Shown here: in pieces, positions 47,208-56,425 of the stretch
How positions within the stretch are numbered: the stretch's first letter is position 1
How the letters are laid out: the number at the start of each line of letters is the position of its first letter
From: Micropruina sonneratiae
GTDB lineage: Bacteria; Actinomycetota; Actinomycetes; Propionibacteriales; Propionibacteriaceae
Reading direction: 5' to 3'
Assembly (NCBI RefSeq): GCF_025972045.1
Contig: NZ_JAPDHX010000001.1
Coordinates: forward strand, 147,181 to 211,180
Length of the DNA: 64,000 bases
Program-made: the position numbers and the translations under genes
Notes under the pieces: model-generated
The model's input: only the letters and a program-made list of their open reading frames with translations
Told to the model about the DNA's origin: nothing
Databases searched by the model: none

Positions 47208-48089
47208 TCAGTCGTCCGGCTCGAGGCGGGCGGTGAGCGTGTCCCGCAGTTCCTCGGCGGCCGCGGTCAGCGAATGGCCGAGCCCGGGCGCCAGGTCGGC
47301 GACGTCGGCCTGGCGTCCGCCGCCGGCCAGCAGCAACGGTGGGGTCTGCAGGGCGTCCGTCCGGCTCAGGCGGCCCAGCGCGCTCAGCGCGGCCCGCGCG
47401 CCGGCGACATCGTCCTGCGTGGGAACGGCGATCACCACGGCCGCCGGCGGATGCGCCGGGACGGCGCCGACCCAGGCGTCCTCGGGCAGATCCGGGCCGA
47501 GATAGACCACCTGCAGGCCTGCCAGCCGGGCCAGCACGTTGAACGCCGCGAGGCCGACCTCGTGGTGGCAGCCGCTGGGCAGACCGGTCAGCACCAGCGG
47601 GCCGTCGGCCGGGTTGGGGGTGTTCTCGAAGGCGACGTGCAGCCGGCGCAGCACCGTGGAGGCCACGGCGTGCTCCTGCCAGACCGTCACCCGGCCCTGC
47701 GCCCAGGCATTGCCCAACTCGGTCAGCATCGGCATCAGCCAGCCCTCGATGACCTCGGGCAACGGTTGCGCCCGGAAGCGGGCGGCGACCAGGGCCTGCC
47801 GGCGGACGGGGGACAGCCCGGCGCCCACGGCGGCCACGAACTCCTGCGGGCTGGGCAGGTCGGCGGCGTGCCCGGCGCCGTCCAGCGCGACCGCTGCGGC
47901 GTTGCGCGGTGCCCAGCCGGCTTGCACCAGTTGTCGCATGAACCGGAAGCGCGCCACCGCGGCCTCGTCGTACAACCGGTAGCCCGAGGCCGATCGGGTG
48001 GCCGCCGGAAGTTCGTAGCGGCGCTCCCAGGCCCGCAGGGTCGCGGTGGGCACGCCGCTCAACTGCGCCACCTGCTTGATCGTGTACAC
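47208..48089 (-). CDS. CarH/LitR-type MerR regulator with B12-binding domain
   Basis: A 293-residue regulator. Residues 1-70 are a MerR winged helix (VYTIKQVAQLSGVPTATLRA then WERRYELP). Residues about 85-175 form the helical cobalamin-cap domain with the Wx9EH signature of CarH (W...WQEH in NAWAQGRVTVWQEH). The Rossmann-like B12 domain has the xHxxG lower-ligand motif GCHHEVG, although the Glu/Asp two residues before the histidine is Cys here, and the final LLLAGGG. CarH proteins bind DNA as tetramers in the dark with adenosylcobalamin and release it in light, so carotenoid genes are induced by light. The GTG start follows AGAAGGG by nine bases. It is divergent from idi-crtE. Confidence 0.87.
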   Translation of the reverse strand: MYTIKQVAQLSGVPTATLRAWERRYELPAATRSASGYRLYDEAAVARFRFMRQLVQAGWAPRNAAAVALDGAGHAADLPSPQEFVAAVGAGLSPVRRQALVAARFRAQPLPEVIEGWLMPMLTELGNAWAQGRVTVWQEHAVASTVLRRLHVAFENTPNPADGPLVLTGLPSGCHHEVGLAAFNVLARLAGLQVVYLGPDLPEDAWVGAVPAHPPAAVVIAVPTQDDVAGARAALSALGRLSRTDALQTPPLLLAGGGRQADVADLAPGLGHSLTAAAEELRDTLTARLEPDD

Positions 48090-48137
48090 CGCACAAACCC
48101 TTCTGGGATCTTCTGCGCATGGTACCGAAGGGCTAAC

Positions 48138-48159
48138 CTTATACAAAGCTTGTACAGTC
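48138..48159. promoter_or_regulatory. CarH-type operator in front of idi-crtE
   Basis: Two adjacent 11-base units: cTTATACAaag (48138-48148) and cTTGTACAgtc (48149-48159). Both fit the TnTACA core of known CarH sites, repeated at one helical turn. The region is also an inverted repeat (TACAA and TTGTA around AGC). It lies between the divergent regulator and idi-crtE genes and would overlap either promoter. Confidence 0.65.
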
Positions 48160-48199
48160 TGGTTTTCACACGCCGCAGTCGGCCGAGGAGGGATCGTCC

Positions 48200-49828
48200 G
48201 TGCTGGACCGCCTGTCGTTTGTCGAGGACGCCGTCGTGCTGCTCAGCGACCAGGGACGCCCGATCGGCACCGCCCCCCGGCTGGCGGTGCACACCACCCA
48301 CACCCCCCTGCACCTGGCCTTCTCGTGCTACCTGTTCGACGCCGACGGACGCCTGCTGCTGACCCGGCGCTCGTTGGCCAAGAGGACCTGGCCGGGGGTG
48401 TGGACGAACTCGTGCTGTGGCCATCCACTGCCCGGTGAGGACGCCCCGTCCGCCGTCCGGCGTCGCGTCGCCGAAGAGCTCGGCGTCGACATCGAGGAGT
48501 TGTCGCTGGTGCTGCCCGACTTCCGCTACCGGGCGGTCGACGCCGGCGGCGTGGTCGAGAACGAGCTGTGCCCGGTCTGGGTCGGCCGGGTGAACGGCGC
48601 CCGGCTGCAGCCGGACGCCGACGAGGTCGCCGAGCACGCCTGGGTCGACTGGCCGGACTTCGTCGCCGCCGCCCGCGCGACGCCGCAGGCGTTCAGCCCC
48701 TGGTCGGTGCTGCAGGCGGCCGAGCTGGCCGAACGGCTCGACGACGCCGGACGCCCGGCCGAGGCCTGGGCCGACGATGGGGCCGGCGTCCCTCTCGAGA
48801 GCGAAACGGTGGCCGCGGTCCAGGCGTCCGTCGCCGACGAGCTGGACGGGCTGACCGATGCGTGGCAGTCCTGGGTGCCCGACGTCGAGGTGTTGCCGGT
48901 CGACCTGCCGCAGTGGCTCGCCGGCCTGTCGACGCTGGGCGGCAAGCGGTTCCGGCCCCGGCTGGGGCACTGGGGCTATGTGTCGGTGGGCGGACGCCGC
49001 GGCGTGCGGCACGACACCCTGGTCACCGCCGCTGCGGCCCTTGAACTGCTGCACCTGTTCGCCCTGGTGCACGACGACGTGATGGACGAGTCCGGCTCTC
49101 GGCGGGGTGCCCCGGCCGCGCACGTCCAGGCGGCGACCTGGCACCGCGAGCAGGGCGCGGCGGGGCGACCGGAGGTGTTCGGCCGCAACCTGGCCATCCT
49201 GCTCGGAGATCTGGCGCACGCCCGGGCCGACCGACTCGCGGACACGCTGCCCGCCGCCCTGCGCTCGACCTGGCACGAACTCTGCCTGGAACTGATCGCC
49301 GGTCAGCGCGCCGACCTCACCGGTGCGGCCGCAGGCCGCCGCGACCGGGAGCATGCCGAGCGGATCGCCCAACTCAAGTCCGGCTCGTACTCGGTCACCC
49401 GCCCCCTGCAGTTGGGCGCGCTGGCCGGCGGGGCGTCCGCCGGCCAGCGAGCCGTGCTGGACCGGTACGGACGGCACGTGGGCAGGGCGTTCGCCCTGCG
49501 CGACGACCTGCTGGGGCTGTGGGGCGACCCTTCGGTCACCGGCAAGCCCGCCGGCGACGACCTGGCCGACGGCAAGGCGACGGTGATCCTCGCGCTGGCG
49601 GGCGAGACCCTGACCGGCGCGGACGTCGCCCTGCTGGCCGAGCCGGTGATGGACGTGCCCGCCGTGCTCGCCGCATTCGAGCGAGCCGGGATCCCGCAAC
49701 GCGTCGAGGAGTTGATCGCCACCGAGGTGCGGGCCGCCCGGGACGTCCTGACCGACGCCCCGCTCACCCGGGCCGGCGTGGCGGGTCTGCACGAGATGGC
49801 CGCCGCGATCGCCTGGCGCCGGGCATGA
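48200..49828 (+). CDS. idi-crtE: fused isopentenyl-diphosphate isomerase and geranylgeranyl diphosphate synthase
   Basis: A 542-residue natural fusion. Residues 1-180 are a type I IPP isomerase: Nudix-like fold with TNSCCGHP (catalytic Cys) and VVENELCPVW (catalytic Glu). Residues 200-542 are a trans-prenyltransferase with the first aspartate-rich motif HDDVMDESGSRRG (about residue 291), GGKRFRPRL, and the second motif RDDLLGLWGD followed by GKPAGDDLADGK. One polypeptide would isomerise IPP to DMAPP and condense them to GGPP for carotenoids. The GTG start follows GAGGAGGG. It heads idi-crtE, crtI, crtB with ATGA overlaps, next to a CarH-type operator. Confidence 0.92.
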   Translation: MLDRLSFVEDAVVLLSDQGRPIGTAPRLAVHTTHTPLHLAFSCYLFDADGRLLLTRRSLAKRTWPGVWTNSCCGHPLPGEDAPSAVRRRVAEELGVDIEELSLVLPDFRYRAVDAGGVVENELCPVWVGRVNGARLQPDADEVAEHAWVDWPDFVAAARATPQAFSPWSVLQAAELAERLDDAGRPAEAWADDGAGVPLESETVAAVQASVADELDGLTDAWQSWVPDVEVLPVDLPQWLAGLSTLGGKRFRPRLGHWGYVSVGGRRGVRHDTLVTAAAALELLHLFALVHDDVMDESGSRRGAPAAHVQAATWHREQGAAGRPEVFGRNLAILLGDLAHARADRLADTLPAALRSTWHELCLELIAGQRADLTGAAAGRRDREHAERIAQLKSGSYSVTRPLQLGALAGGASAGQRAVLDRYGRHVGRAFALRDDLLGLWGDPSVTGKPAGDDLADGKATVILALAGETLTGADVALLAEPVMDVPAVLAAFERAGIPQRVEELIATEVRAARDVLTDAPLTRAGVAGLHEMAAAIAWRRA

Positions 49829-51315
49829 GCCACGTGGTGGTGGTCGGGGCCGGGCTGTCCGGCCTGGCGGCGGCCTGTCACCTGCTGGGCCGCGGCCACC
49901 GGGTGACCGTGCTCGAGGCGTCCGACCGGCCGGGTGGACGGGCCGGCGCGCTGCAGGCCGACGGTTTCACCTTCGACACCGGCCCGGTGGTGCTCACCAT
50001 GCGCGGGCTGCTGGCGCGCGTCTTCGCCGCCGCCGGCACCCGGCTGGAGGACCACCTGCGACTGATCCGGATCGACCCCGCCTACCGGGCGGTGTTCGAC
50101 GACGGCTCGGTGCTGCACGTGCGGCACGGACACGAGGCGATGCGGGACGAGATCGCGACCCACTGCGGGGGCAGGGACGCCGCCGCCTTCGACGGCTTCG
50201 TGACCTGGCTGAAGGCGCTGCACGACGTCGAGGTGCCGCACTTCATCGACCGCAACTTCGACTCTCCGCTACAACTGGCGGCCAACCCGATGGCGGCGCT
50301 GAAACTGGCGGCGCTGGGCGGGTTCGGACGCCTCGGGCGGGCCATCGAGCGACGCTTCGACGATCCTCGGCTGCACCGGCTTTTCTCGTTCCAGGCGATG
50401 TACGCCGGGCTGGCGCCCTCGCAGGCCCTGGCGCTCTACGCGGTGATCACCTACATGGATTCGATCGAGGGCGTCTGGTTCCCGGTCGGCGGCATGCGGG
50501 CGATCGGGCCGGCGCTGGCGCAGGCGGTGACGGCGGCCGGCGGCGAGGTGTGCTGCTCGACCCCGGTGCAGCGGGTGCTGAGACGCGACGACGGGGCGGT
50601 CACCGGCGTCCGGCTGTCCGACGGTTCGACGATCACGGCGGACGCCGTCGTGCTCACCCCCGACCTGCCGTACGCCTACGACACGCTGCTCGACCTCGAA
50701 CCACCGGGGGTGCTGGGTGCGAAGTGGCCCGGACGGCGTCCGCGCTGGTCGCCCTCGTGCGTGGTGTGGCACGCCGGGGTCGAGGGGACGCCCGAGCCCG
50801 ACGCCGCGCACCACACCATCCACTTCGGGCGGGACTGGGACGGGGCCTTCGACGACCTGCTGAAGCGCGGTGTGTTGATGCGCGACCCGAGCCGGTTCGT
50901 GTGCCGGCCCAGTGTGGACGACCCGGACGCCGCCCCCGAGGGCCGCCAGACTCTCTACGTGCTCGAGCCCACCCCCAACCTGGCCGACGGTGACCTGGAC
51001 TGGACCGCGTCCGGGCGGTCCGCGATGCGCGAGCGGCTGCACGGCTTCGTCGCCGGGGCCGGCTATCCGGCCGACGTGGTGACCGAGGCGCTGGTGACGC
51101 CGCTGGACTGGCAGCAGCAGGGCATGGCGGCCGGGACGCCGTTCGCTCTCGCCCACACCTTCGGCCAGACCGGCCCGTTCCGGCCGGCCAACGTCCGCGC
51201 CGATGCCCCGGGGCTGGTGTTTGCCGGGTCGGGGACGACCCCCGGCGTGGGCATCCCGATGGTGCTGATCTCGGGCCGGCTCGCCGCCGACCGGGTCGAC
51301 GAGATGCTGCGATGA
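49825..51315 (+). CDS. crtI: phytoene desaturase
   Basis: A 496-residue flavoprotein of the CrtI family. It has the N-terminal FAD fold VVVVGAGLSGLAAACHLL, the family motif SDRPGGRAGALQADGF, and the C-terminal FAGSGTTPGVGIPMVLISG that forms the FAD-site signature. CrtI desaturates phytoene stepwise to lycopene. Starts with ATGA overlap on idi-crtE and overlaps crtB in the same way, so the three are translated together. Confidence 0.94.
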   Translation: MSHVVVVGAGLSGLAAACHLLGRGHRVTVLEASDRPGGRAGALQADGFTFDTGPVVLTMRGLLARVFAAAGTRLEDHLRLIRIDPAYRAVFDDGSVLHVRHGHEAMRDEIATHCGGRDAAAFDGFVTWLKALHDVEVPHFIDRNFDSPLQLAANPMAALKLAALGGFGRLGRAIERRFDDPRLHRLFSFQAMYAGLAPSQALALYAVITYMDSIEGVWFPVGGMRAIGPALAQAVTAAGGEVCCSTPVQRVLRRDDGAVTGVRLSDGSTITADAVVLTPDLPYAYDTLLDLEPPGVLGAKWPGRRPRWSPSCVVWHAGVEGTPEPDAAHHTIHFGRDWDGAFDDLLKRGVLMRDPSRFVCRPSVDDPDAAPEGRQTLYVLEPTPNLADGDLDWTASGRSAMRERLHGFVAGAGYPADVVTEALVTPLDWQQQGMAAGTPFALAHTFGQTGPFRPANVRADAPGLVFAGSGTTPGVGIPMVLISGRLAADRVDEMLR

Positions 51316-52205
51316 CCCCGGGTGGTGGGCCGCCCGCCGACACGAAGGCCCTGGTGGCGAGGGGGTTGCGGCGAAGCCGGGCGATCACCCGCCGGCACGG
51401 CACCACCTACTGGTGGGGGACGCTGCTGCTGTCCCGCACGCAGGCGCACGACGTGGCCGCCGTGTACGCGATCTGCCGCCTCGCCGACGACCTCGTCGAC
51501 GAACAAGCCGACCCGGTGCGCGCCGAGGCCGACCTGGAGCAGTTCCGGGACCGCTTCTACGCGGCCTGGGACGGCGCCGGCTCCACCCAGAACGAGTCCG
51601 ACGCCGAGATCCTGGCCGCCGGCGCCGAGGTGGTCCGGCGGCGGGGGATCTCCCGGGAGTGCTTCGACCGCTTCTTCGACGCGATGGCGCTCGACCTGAC
51701 CCGGACGTCGTGGGCGTCCTGGCCGGACCTGCGTGACGGCTACATGGAGGGCTCCGCGGCCGTCATCGGCGAAATGATGCTGCCGGTCCTGGAACCGCTG
51801 ACCCCGGCGGCGATGGAACCGGCCCGCCAGCTCGGGCTCGCCTTCCAGCTCACCAACTTCATCCGCGACGTAGGCGAGGATCTCGACCGCGGCCGGGTGT
51901 ACCTGCCGGCCGACGAACTGGCGGCGTCCGGGGCGGACCCGTGGCTGCGCCGGGTCACCCCGCAGTGGCGCGACTTCCTGGCCGGCCAGATCGCCCGCAA
52001 CCGCGAGCTCTACGCGGCGGCCCGGCCCGGCATCTCGATGCTGCCCACCCGCTCGTCCCGGTGCGTCGCCGCAGCGCACGCCCTGTACGCGCAGATCCTC
52101 GACCGGATCGAGGCGTCCGGGTATGACGTGTTCAGTGGCCGCGTCCGGGTGCCGGGGTGGACGAAGGCGCGCACCGTCGCGGCGCTGCTGACCGCGGCAC
52201 GATAA
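51312..52205 (+). CDS. crtB: phytoene synthase
   Basis: A 297-residue squalene/phytoene synthase. The two aspartate-rich motifs are RLADDLVDEQAD (about residue 57) and FIRDVGEDLDRGRVYLP (about residue 180). It condenses two GGPP to phytoene. Coupled by ATGA to crtI. The stop TAA lies within the -10 box of the following dcd gene, where this transcription unit probably ends. Confidence 0.94.
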   Translation: MTPGGGPPADTKALVARGLRRSRAITRRHGTTYWWGTLLLSRTQAHDVAAVYAICRLADDLVDEQADPVRAEADLEQFRDRFYAAWDGAGSTQNESDAEILAAGAEVVRRRGISRECFDRFFDAMALDLTRTSWASWPDLRDGYMEGSAAVIGEMMLPVLEPLTPAAMEPARQLGLAFQLTNFIRDVGEDLDRGRVYLPADELAASGADPWLRRVTPQWRDFLAGQIARNRELYAAARPGISMLPTRSSRCVAAAHALYAQILDRIEASGYDVFSGRVRVPGWTKARTVAALLTAAR

Positions 52206-52790: not shown

Positions 52791-52904
52791 GGGCCCACTG
52801 CACCACCGTTTCAGGGTGTGCCACCCGGGAGCCCGAACCCCCGGCGGACTTGTCGTGGCACCGGAGCAGCGGATCCGCTCAGCCGGGGTCCTGCGGAATC
52901 GAGG

Positions 52905-53527
52905 GGGCGGACGCTGAACGCCCTGTTCGACGATCTGGAGCGGCTGCCACGGGTCGAGATCGTGCAGTTGGCGGGGCGGTTCGGTGGCGACCTCAACAAC
53001 TCCCAGGGCGAGTTGACCCGGCGCACGGTGGCGCTGGCCGGCGGGGCGGCGCGCGCCATTCCGGCGCCGTTCTTCATCGACGACGCACGCGCCGCGAACG
53101 CGTTGCGCCGGCGGCCCGAGGTGGCATCGGTGGTGGCCGAGTTCGACCGGATCGGCACCGCGGTGGTCGGCATCGGGGCCGTCCACCCCAGGCCGGTCTC
53201 CATCGCCTACTCGGACATGCCGGCCAGGTTCACCGAGCGAGTGCTGCAGTCCGGCGCGGTGGGCGAGGGGCAGGGCACCTGTTCGCCGATGACGGGCACA
53301 GCGTCGACGCCGTCCTGTGGCGGCACACCCTGACGGTCACCCCCGAGCAGTTGCGCCGGGTCGACCGGGTGGTCGCCGCCGCCGCACACCCGCTCAAGGC
53401 ACGGGCGGTGCGCTCGGTGATCTGTTCGGGCATCCTCACCGACGTGGTGGTCGGCATCGAGTTGGCCCACGCCCTGCTGGCCATGCCCCGGGTGGCCCGC
53501 GACGAGATGTACGCCGCGCGCGCCTGA
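52905..53527 (+). pseudogene. remnant of a SorC/DeoR-type sugar-binding regulator
   Basis: The sugar-binding domain of the SorC family is recognisable in two frames. The first (TLNALFDDLERLPRVEIVQL, then AVVGIGAVHP and QSGAVGE) runs to about 53268. The second (GHLFADDGHSVDAVLWRH through SVICSGILTDVVVGI) continues to 53527. A one-base change at the GGGCAGGGC stretch near 53268-53277 separates them. The N-terminal helix-turn-helix domain is missing and no start codon is present. No sugar operon lies nearby, so this is a decayed gene. Confidence 0.78.
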
Positions 53528-53558
53528 GCGGGCATCCACCGCACGGGCGGGGTCGGGA

Positions 53559-55013
53559 TCAACCGACCAGCCCGCGCATCGGCGCCGACCAGACCTCCTC
53601 GCCGGCCACCCCCCACTGCGCGAGCAGGGCGTTCGCAGCGAGGACGCCGGTGGTGGCGGCCCGCTCCATCAGCGCGACCGGCAGGTCGCAGCGCACCCAG
53701 TCGCCGGCCAGCACCAGGTTCGGCCACCGGGTCTGGACGCCGGGGCGGTCGGCGTAGGGGGAGGGGTCGACCAGCGGGCAGTCGTCGGCGACCAGTAGGT
53801 GACGATCGACGATGCCGGCGACGCGGGTCTCGGGCCACGCCCGGTGCAGCTCGGCCAGCAGGCGCGCATCGACGTCGTCGGTGGTGGTGAGCGCGTAGCC
53901 GTGCAGTTCCACCACCGATCCGCCGGTCGCCGCCGCCCACCCTGTCGCGCCGGCCTCGAACCGGTCCAGCACCGAGATGTTGTCCAGCGGGCCGAAGCCA
54001 CTTGTACCCACGAAGGCCGGCCGCTCGTCGGCCACGGGACGGTCCAACCACAGCCGCAGCACGGCGAATGGTGGCGCGTTGCGCGTGGCGGCGACGCGGG
54101 GGTCGACCTTGCCGATCAGCTCGCGGGCCGTGCGCGGGTCGGCGGCGAGCACGACGCCGTCGGCCACCAACTCCTCGCCGCCGGCCACGACCCGGCCGGC
54201 GGCGGCGTCCACCTCGTCAACCCGGACGCCGGTGCGCACCGCGACACCGAGCGACGCCAGGTAGCGCCCCAGCGGGGCCCACAACGCGGTGTCGTAGTCG
54301 TCGTCGGGCACGTCGAACAGCAGTCCCTCGGCCGAGCCGAGGAAGTAGCTGTGGAACATGGCGACCAGTTCGCCGGCGGCGAAGTCGGTCGGATCCGCGA
54401 AGAAGCTGCGGGCGAACACCTCCAGGGCCAGGTCGCGGGCGGCCGGTGGGAACCGCAGTCGGTCGAGGAAGGCCGCGGCCGATTCCCCGTCGTAGCGGCT
54501 GTAGCCACCGGGGAAGCGGACCCGCACCAGCTCGAGCGCGGCCCGGACATCGACCCGGGTCAGGTCGCGCAACCGGAAGGTGGGACTGGTCAGGACGAAC
54601 CCGATGATGCTCCACGGCGGCGTCCGGGGCAGCGAGCTGAACGAGTCGGTCAGCCCGTCGGGCCTGGTCAGCGGGTAGTCGTCGATCGCGACGAGCCGGT
54701 CGAGGGTGGGGTCGGTGCGGCGCAGCAGGGCGCGCAGGTTGTAGTACTGCCGGAAGAAGGCGTGGAAGCCGCGGCTCATCGTCCGGCCATCGCCCAAGGG
54801 CCACGCCCGGACCCGCCCGCCCAGTTGCTGCTGGGCCTCCAGCAGGGTGACCCGGACGCCGCGCTCGGCCAGCACGGTGGCCGCGGCCAGCCCAGCGATG
54901 CCGCCGCCGACGACCACGACGTGCCGGTCCTCGCGGGCCTTGACCGCGCCGCCGTGGGCGGGGTGCCGGACGGCGCGGCGATCGCGCCCCGGCAGCCGGC
55001 GGGCGCGCCTCAC
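53559..55013 (-). CDS. crtU: carotene desaturase/methyltransferase (isorenieratene synthase)
   Basis: A 484-residue FAD protein resembling CrtU. The FAD fold is VVVVGGGIAGLAAATVLAER near residue 32, followed by GGRVRAWPLGDG and SRGFHAFFRQYYNLRALLRR, characteristic of CrtU. The C-terminus PNLVLAGDWVRCDLPVALME completes the flavin site. CrtU desaturates and shifts a methyl group on beta-carotene rings to give aromatic isorenieratene. Its GTG start overlaps the crtT stop (GTGA). The first 24 residues are basic and low in conservation. Confidence 0.87.
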   Translation of the reverse strand: MRRARRLPGRDRRAVRHPAHGGAVKAREDRHVVVVGGGIAGLAAATVLAERGVRVTLLEAQQQLGGRVRAWPLGDGRTMSRGFHAFFRQYYNLRALLRRTDPTLDRLVAIDDYPLTRPDGLTDSFSSLPRTPPWSIIGFVLTSPTFRLRDLTRVDVRAALELVRVRFPGGYSRYDGESAAAFLDRLRFPPAARDLALEVFARSFFADPTDFAAGELVAMFHSYFLGSAEGLLFDVPDDDYDTALWAPLGRYLASLGVAVRTGVRVDEVDAAAGRVVAGGEELVADGVVLAADPRTARELIGKVDPRVAATRNAPPFAVLRLWLDRPVADERPAFVGTSGFGPLDNISVLDRFEAGATGWAAATGGSVVELHGYALTTTDDVDARLLAELHRAWPETRVAGIVDRHLLVADDCPLVDPSPYADRPGVQTRWPNLVLAGDWVRCDLPVALMERAATTGVLAANALLAQWGVAGEEVWSAPMRGLVG

Positions 55014-55768
55014 GACTGCGTCCGAGGGTCAGGGGTCCCGGCAGCCTCGCCCGGCGGGGTCTGGCCGGAGAGGGGCTTGCGGGCCCGGATCACGTGCAGG
55101 ATGCCGCGCTGCCAGCCGGACACGGTGCGCGACTCGACCCCGGTGAAGCCGGCCGCCACCAGCCGGTCGCAGAACCCGGGCACGGTGTCGAAGTCGAGCA
55201 CGCTGCGCTCAAGGTATTCATACAGCCCGCGGTTGCCGCCGGTCAGGGTGGCCAGCGGCAGGATGACGCACCGGCACACGCCGCGCCAGGTCCAGGCCGC
55301 CCGGCGGGAACCGGCCACCGAGTACTCCAGCACAACCAGCGCGCCGCCCGGCTCGAGCGCGGCGAACGCGTCGGCCAGGGCGGCGTCCCGCTGCGACTCC
55401 GGAACGTTGCGGAACAGGTAGGCGGCCAGCACCCCGCCGACCAGGGCGGTCAGTGTCGGGGCCAGCGAACCGGCCAGCCCATGCCGGAACTCCACCCCTG
55501 CCGGCCACCGCTTGGCCCTGGCCTGGGCGAGCATGCCCGCCGAGGCGTCCATCCCGAGCACCTCGACGTCGCCGAACGCCCGCAGCAGGGCCGCCGTCGA
55601 GGCTCCCGAGCCGCAGCCGAGGTCGACCAGGGAGGCACCGGGGCGTACCCCCTGCCGCAGTGCGCGGGCCGCGGCGTCCAGATGGTCGTGGTAGCCGGGA
55701 TTGAGGCCGACCAGCAGGTCGTAGCGCCCCGCCCCGGCGTCGAACGCGGCCGTGACCGCCTCACTCAT
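55010..55768 (-). CDS. crtT: CrtT-like SAM methyltransferase
   Basis: A 252-residue class I methyltransferase. It has motif I LVDLGCGSGASTAALL (about residues 47-62), the acidic strand end LGMDAS, and AAYLFRNVPESQRDAAL, as in the CrtT proteins that lie between crtY and crtU in Streptomyces griseus-type clusters. CrtT is not known to be essential for isorenieratene. Gene order here (crtYc, crtYd, crtT, crtU) matches that arrangement, so the name rests partly on context. Confidence 0.78.
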   Translation of the reverse strand: MSEAVTAAFDAGAGRYDLLVGLNPGYHDHLDAAARALRQGVRPGASLVDLGCGSGASTAALLRAFGDVEVLGMDASAGMLAQARAKRWPAGVEFRHGLAGSLAPTLTALVGGVLAAYLFRNVPESQRDAALADAFAALEPGGALVVLEYSVAGSRRAAWTWRGVCRCVILPLATLTGGNRGLYEYLERSVLDFDTVPGFCDRLVAAGFTGVESRTVSGWQRGILHVIRARKPLSGQTPPGEAAGTPDPRTQS

Positions 55769-56091
55769 GCCTTCTCCTCGCTGGTGGGCCGGGGGCGGGT
55801 GAGCCGGTGCCAGGTCAGCAGGGTGAGCGTCACCATGGCGAACCCGAAGCCGAAGTCCTCGATCGGGATGTCGAACGGGAACCGGACGCCGAGGAACTCA
55901 TCGGGGGAGTAGATCACGATCGGGTCGGACAGTTTGGTCAGCCAGCCGTCCACCCAGATCTGGAAGAAGAACACCAGCGCCATCGCGAGCCAGTACTGCG
56001 CGGTGCGGAAGATGCCGGTGCGCAGCCACCAGACCTCCACGGCGATCACGCCCAGTACCGCGACGACGGTGAGCAGCGTGTACTCAGGCAT
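55765..56091 (-). CDS. crtYd: lycopene cyclase subunit CrtYd
   Basis: A 108-residue protein with three membrane helices and the lycopene-cyclase-domain motif PFDIPIEDFGFGFAMV. It pairs with the neighbouring CrtYc to form the heterodimeric cyclase found in actinomycetes that closes the ends of lycopene to beta rings. It overlaps crtT by four bases and crtYc by eight. Confidence 0.88.
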   Translation of the reverse strand: MPEYTLLTVVAVLGVIAVEVWWLRTGIFRTAQYWLAMALVFFFQIWVDGWLTKLSDPIVIYSPDEFLGVRFPFDIPIEDFGFGFAMVTLTLLTWHRLTRPRPTSEEKA

Positions 56092-56425
56092 CGGCGTCCT
56101 TCGAGCCGGCGCCGCGCAACCGGCGCAGCACGGTGCCCACCGCCTCGTAGGTGAGCAGCCCGCAGATGCCGATGGTGACGAAGAACACCAACTCCTCCAC
56201 CGGCATCACCCCCAGGTGCACTCCGGTGACGAAGGCTGGGTTGTAGGTCCAGTGATCGCGGACGATGCCCACCACGTCCCACACCGAGAACACCACCAGC
56301 ATCGGCAGCAGGGCCAGCAGCATCAGCCTCCAGCGGGCGTAGACCCGGGCGCCGAGCAGCAGCTCCAACGGCAGCGTGATCACCAGGCACCCCGCCATCA
56401 ACAGCAGGTACTGGTAGTGGTTCAT
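56084..56425 (-). CDS. crtYc: lycopene cyclase subunit CrtYc
   Basis: A 113-residue protein with three membrane helices. It has the motif VWDVVGIVRDHWTYNP and the conserved MPVEELVFFVTIG, both typical of CrtYc. It is the first gene of the crtYc-crtYd-crtT-crtU arm. GGAGG is five bases before the ATG. An 11-base repeated TTGGAC motif lies directly upstream and may be a CarH-type operator. Confidence 0.88.
   Translation of the reverse strand: MNHYQYLLLMAGCLVITLPLELLLGARVYARWRLMLLALLPMLVVFSVWDVVGIVRDHWTYNPAFVTGVHLGVMPVEELVFFVTIGICGLLTYEAVGTVLRRLRGAGSKDADA

Follow-up and report, generated by a model that had tools for sequence, protein, structure and literature searches.

The locus

The window, which is the whole stretch of 64,000 nucleotides that was analysed, contains a carH/litR-like regulator gene, two carotenoid (crt) operons and two short repeated sites:

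47208..48089, minus strand: carH/litR-like gene, encoding a MerR DNA-binding domain, a four-helix B12 cap and a Rossmann B12 domain
47570-47568, minus strand: codon of Cys193, two residues before the axial histidine, at the position of Glu175 in Thermus thermophilus CarH (TtCarH)
48135..48156, plus strand: operator 1, AACCTTATACA followed directly by AAGCTTGTACA, two tandem 11-bp repeats identical at 9/11 positions, between carH and idi-crtE
48200..49828, plus strand: idi-crtE, NUDIX isomerase and polyprenyl (GGPP) synthase, head of crt operon 1
49825..51315, plus strand: crtI-like phytoene desaturase
51312..52205, plus strand: crtB phytoene synthase
53559..55013, minus strand: crtU-like FAD oxidoreductase of the isorenieratene type, named by gene order
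55010..55768, minus strand: crtT-like methyltransferase
55765..56091, minus strand: crtYd lycopene cyclase subunit (Lycopene_cyc)
56084..56425, minus strand: crtYc-like lycopene cyclase subunit, 113 aa, head of crt operon 2
56454-56433, minus strand: operator 2, AAGGTTGGACA followed directly by AACCTTGGACG, 7 bp upstream of the crtYc ATG

The idi and crtE parts form a single fused ORF of 542 aa. The same fusion recurs in Micropruina SSC1 (L035 10480-12081) and apparently in Tessaracoccus OS52 (L046). The second operon has the order crtYc-crtYd-crtT-crtU, and its crtYc-like gene, named by its position next to crtYd, is conserved in relatives. A regulator that appears SorC-like by eye (52818-53530, plus strand) is apparently split over two frames near 53300, a possible frameshift or sequencing error.

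Identity and fold of the regulator

The reading frame of the regulator ends with a stop at 47208 and is open to a TTG at 48146 (47208-48146, minus strand), which lies inside operator 1. Translation more probably begins at the GTG at 48089, which gives a protein of 293 aa, or at 48098, because the homologues begin at [MV]YT. Residue numbers given here (W148, H195, Cys193 and so on) follow the translation P0001, counted from the TTG at 48146.

The preliminary description assigned the protein to the MerR family as a CarH/LitR-type regulator, and domain matches, the closest PDB sequence and the predicted fold all bear this out. The protein has a MerR_1 domain (Pfam, E 3e-16) with the RxWERRY motif and a B12-binding_2 domain that scores above its cut-off (E 8e-7); its PF02310 match is sub-threshold at 18.7 bits against a cut-off of 32.1. 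The best model in the library is the NCBIfam CarH equivalog NF052513, at 113.9 bits and thus below its cut-off of 400, and the best phmmer match in the PDB is TtCarH (5c8d, E 1e-21). In a Foldseek search of the PDB with the AF2 model (mean pLDDT 93), the top 12 matches are all full-length TtCarH, followed by CtMerR and then by B12-domain structures of TtCarH. Over the full length the agreement is modest (TM-scores of about 0.5-0.6, large rmsd), as a difference in domain orientation would lead one to expect, and the B12-domain targets align mostly at a TMt of 0.72-0.81. Other PF02310 matches in the genome fall in enzyme-sized ORFs (760 to 1288 aa), which leaves the window protein as the one small MerR-B12 protein observed there. 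The genome also holds three cobalamin adenosyltransferase genes, one CobA-type and two PduO-type, which together with the predicted fold and the full photoreceptor signature described below strengthen the CarH/LitR-like identity. A single photolyase-family gene is found elsewhere than at the regulator locus.

The cofactor site

The adenosyl-contact motif Wx9EH is present as W148-x9-E158-H159 and the axial histidine lies in the expected HxxG/P context as H195-E-V-G198, in agreement with the cap signature and C-terminal HxxG noticed earlier. Four short motifs, GxxW, EH, GxxH and GxxxP, constitute an experimentally supported signature of light-responsive cobalamin domains, as defined with SignatureFinder (PMC11796333), and the window protein has the complete set as G145NAW148, E158H159, G192CHH195 and G217PDLP221.

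The classic B12 motif, D/ExHx2G/Px41SxT/Vx22-27GG, includes both an acidic and an SxT/V element (PMC9304148), and the window protein departs from it at each. Alignment with the structurally known CarH (5c8d) places Cys193 where TtCarH has Glu175, two residues before the axial histidine. The SxT/V element is replaced by A240-V-P, and the GG at 275-276 follows at a spacing of 32 residues instead of the classic 22-27. With these three alterations the affinity for the cofactor could differ from that of classic B12 proteins. An alanine stands at the position of His132 of TtCarH, which becomes the upper ligand in the light state (bis-His) and whose replacement in H132A hampers tetramer disassembly (PMC10442372). 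This position is variable in nature. His is found in 16/74 sequences outside the clade described below, most natural homologues are without it, and CtMerR, whose light response is confirmed, has Arg there (PMC11796333).

A clade without the acidic residue

In a tree of 102 rows, for which the relatives were chosen by search patterns so that pattern choice and sampling bias the sequences seen, a single branch with an SH-aLRT of 99 unites 38 actinobacterial sequences, drawn from Propionibacteriaceae, Nocardioidaceae, Intrasporangiaceae and related groups. Glu or Asp two residues before the axial histidine is found in none of the 38 (0/38) and in 63/64 sequences outside, the single outside sequence without it being a gammaproteobacterial one with Ser. 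Over all 102 rows the states are E 62, D 1, S 12, A 9, V 7, G 4, I 4 and C 3, and two changes on the tree account for the whole distribution, compared with about 31 in shuffles. Judged from this tree, the acidic residue was lost once, in the ancestor of the actinobacterial clade, and Cys is one of several states that replaced it. The Cys described earlier as an unusual variant is thus real and is shared in kind by its relatives: all 38 members lack Glu/Asp and three carry Cys. The Ser of SxT/V has likewise changed in most of the clade (A 20, G 12, S 5, T 1), compared with Ser in 46/64 sequences outside. Within the collection of papers searched, none was found on the loss of the acidic residue or on the 38-member clade.

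The absence of two classic elements across the clade would suit a B12-independent derivative with a decaying B12 site, which would repress the crt genes without adenosylcobalamin (AdoCbl), as Myxococcus xanthus CarA does, or through redox chemistry at Cys193. M. xanthus CarA has lost the Trp of Wx9EH (PMC9304148). Against such decay, the equivalents of Trp131, Glu141, His142, His177, Gly199 and Pro203, that is the Trp, the Glu-His pair, the axial His and the Gly and Pro of GxxxP, are conserved in 38/38 members, Wx9EH among them, which implies that the adenosyl-side contacts are constrained; all four signature motifs occur together in 37/38. We therefore regard B12 independence as improbable. 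A Cys193 redox switch as a mechanism shared by the clade was considered and is ruled out, Cys occurring in just 3/38 members. The reading that we prefer is that the clade consists of AdoCbl photoreceptors with an altered lower-ligand face rather than of decayed ones, as the pattern of conserved residues suggests.

Two operators at two carotenoid operons

Operator 1 contains TATACA (48140) and TGTACA (48151) at a pitch of 11 bp, and TNTACAN5TNTACA matches once in the window, against no match in 100 shuffles, and once in the 3.5-Mb genome. The pair of tandem 11-base units announced upstream of idi-crtE, with its pitch, is therefore real. The core TnTACA proposed for it is replaced by TTnnACA, in a different register: across 18 sites from nine genomes the repeat unit is AASNTTRKACA, present twice, with nothing conserved outside. 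With this unit the site comes to lie at 48135-48156, which corrects the earlier 48138-48159. Both halves of operator 1 are full repeats by the published CarH consensus nnnnTnnACAn (PMC9304148). Inspection by eye of the flanking positions at +/-11 bp (48124-48134 and 48157-48167) found no extra repeat, and a scan of the carH/idi-crtE intergenic region for a sigma-70 consensus promoter found none.

A second operator, missed in the preliminary description, completes the regulon. It also fits the CarH repeat, with two repeats of which the second ends in ACG. Within the window the pattern TTNNACANNNNTTNNACR matches exactly twice (never in 100 shuffles), and the refined pattern TTNNACAAANNTTNNACR has exactly two matches in the 3.5-Mb genome, one before the first gene of each crt operon; TTNNACAAANNTTNNACR was written after both sites were known, and the informative part of this count is its exclusivity, together with the sister genomes. 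In the sister genome G005 the same pattern occurs exactly twice, at idi-crtE and at crtYc. The proposed control of the carotenoid genes gains strength because the genome has just these two sites and each is at a crt operon, and because the operator is conserved in relatives.

A less direct route is known from Streptomyces, where LitR reportedly activates the litS promoter in the light and represses it in the dark (PMC12705666). On that model LitR would act on litS and sigma-LitS on crtE, and the operator at idi-crtE would be mainly autoregulatory. The chances of such an activator cascade here are slim, as the sites, here and in G005 alike, stand directly before each of the two crt operons, direct control suffices, and inspection of the window by eye shows no sigma gene adjoining the regulator.

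Sites and gene layout in relatives

In the divergent regulator/idi regions of relatives the site is kept and the flanks drift. The same element is found with different filling as AACCTTAGACAAAGCTTCGACA, AACCTTATACAAACATTGGACG, AACCTTAGACAAACATTGGACA, AACATTAGACAAACATTCGACA and AACATTAAACAAACATTGGACA, and in relatives the sites accompany idi-crtE, the regulator gene and a TspO-like gene. In a set of 77 named loci that spans several phyla, the 24.6 kb just upstream of MerR-B12 genes hold 19 sites and the 1,121 kb elsewhere hold 5, an enrichment of about 170-fold (Fisher P 8e-28). The site is upstream of the MerR-B12 gene in only 15/77 loci, so it must be spelled differently in other CarH lineages.

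The notion that the site is an ordinary MerR palindrome of inverted repeats draws on AAGCTT in operator 1 and AAGGTT...AACCTT in operator 2, each with partial dyad symmetry. It is scarcely credible in view of a comparison of 18 sites, which were found with a pattern biased towards direct repeats. In 18/18 the direct repeat equals or surpasses the best dyad in identity, and in 12/18 it surpasses it; the positions that the pattern left free also obey the 11-bp direct-repeat register (A at -4/+7, A at -3/+8, C or G at -2/+9).

Gene names of neighbours in Micropruina SSC1 and in the genome G011 (PNPOx-, photolyase- and TspO-like) come from a reading of the sequences and not from a family search. 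In Micropruina SSC1 the sites precede the regulator, idi-crtE and a PNPOx-like gene, and a photolyase-like gene lies between the regulator and idi-crtE. The three CarH-type sites there fall within 5.5 kb (L035 4887-10397), in a photoprotection island that also holds an FAD oxidoreductase. In G011 a two-repeat CarH-type site stands 17 bp upstream of the TspO-like gene (L146 5733-6558, G011:C21), which is away from the crt cluster and is likely an extra member of the regulon. These other targets, the photolyase-like cluster and the TspO-like gene, fit a role in photoprotection.

Two further arrangements were seen. Three regulator/idi intergenic regions (L046, L147 and L148) each hold a pair of operators, one nearer the regulator and the other nearer idi. 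The two are separated by 61-62 bp, close to six turns of the helix, and cooperative or looped binding is possible there. Two loci of same-order genomes (L155 and L156; G091:C13 and G083:C14) carry tandem adjacent MerR-B12 paralogues about 1-2 kb apart.

Proposed mechanism

The window protein is, very probably, an AdoCbl-dependent dark repressor that is released by light and acts on two-repeat operators at both crt operons. In the dark, AdoCbl would be held by the four-helix cap (W148, E158, H159) on one side and the Rossmann domain, with its axial H195, on the other, and the AdoCbl-bound protein would be locked as an oligomer. Its DNA-binding domains would occupy the two tandem 11-bp repeats before idi-crtE-crtI-crtB and before crtYc-crtYd-crtT-crtU and so block transcription. 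Light would break the Co-C bond, the oligomer would disassemble, and both operons would be freed for carotenoid production. AdoCbl binding, the response to light, the sign of regulation and the oligomeric state are predicted here from CarH, and on this analogy carotenoids are probably made mainly in the light. Since operator 1 is also within the upstream region of carH itself, the gene probably autoregulates. One dimer per operator is the simplest fit, because each site has two repeats only and no recognisable flanking repeat.

A more specific proposal is put forward tentatively and with clearly less confidence: that the actinobacterial CarH clade without the carboxylate and the SxT Ser binds its two-repeat operator as a dimer, and that its axial tuning and light release are unlike those of TtCarH. 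The loss of the carboxylate amounts to a natural experiment, with 38 putative photoreceptors in which the Asp/Glu usual in His-on B12 proteins is gone and the adenosyl contacts are kept; comparing the clade with TtCarH would reveal the role of the carboxylate in axial ligation and light release. Light-controlled carotenoid synthesis in the lineage offers a concrete and cheap test. Being short and confined to two places in the genome, the operator would lend itself well to a compact green-light gene switch for actinobacteria.

Comparison with known systems

TtCarH/LitR (5C8D/5C8E) shares with the window protein the domain order, Wx9EH, the axial HxxG, GxxxP and the predicted fold, as well as a tandem 11-bp operator and the link to carotenogenesis. 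The two proteins are about 28% identical and differ in that Glu175 of TtCarH is replaced by Cys, His132 by Ala, SxT/V by AVP and Arg176 by His; the TtCarH operator has three repeats, compared with two here. CtMerR of Chloracidobacterium thermophilum (8JBS), whose structure matches, has GxxW, EH, GxxH and GxxxP and is likewise without His132, but it retains the Asp two residues before the axial histidine. The operators of myxobacterial CarH proteins vary in design and, like operator 1, are also found between divergent genes (PMC9304148). Unlike the present system, they contain additional repeats, full or degenerate, and their proteins retain D/ExHx2G/P...SxT/V (PMC9304148). Known CarH operators comprise three to five repeats, whether full or degenerate, compared with two here, and the CarH of Cystobacter (CarHCfu) is a dimer that forms a stable complex with two tandem repeats (PMC9304148), the number found at the present sites. 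Class I LitR of Streptomyces is also an actinobacterial AdoCbl LitR that controls carotenoid genes, but acts via the sigma factor LitS (PMC12705666), and the LitR-like sequences sampled from large actinobacterial genomes (L024 and L025) keep Glu where the window protein has Cys193. The system is best called one that works like CarH, and its proteins a CarH-like variant clade, ordinary in kind and departing from the classic motif in the D/E and SxT/V elements. To the known picture of CarH it adds the second operator and the clade-wide loss of the carboxylate near the axial histidine.
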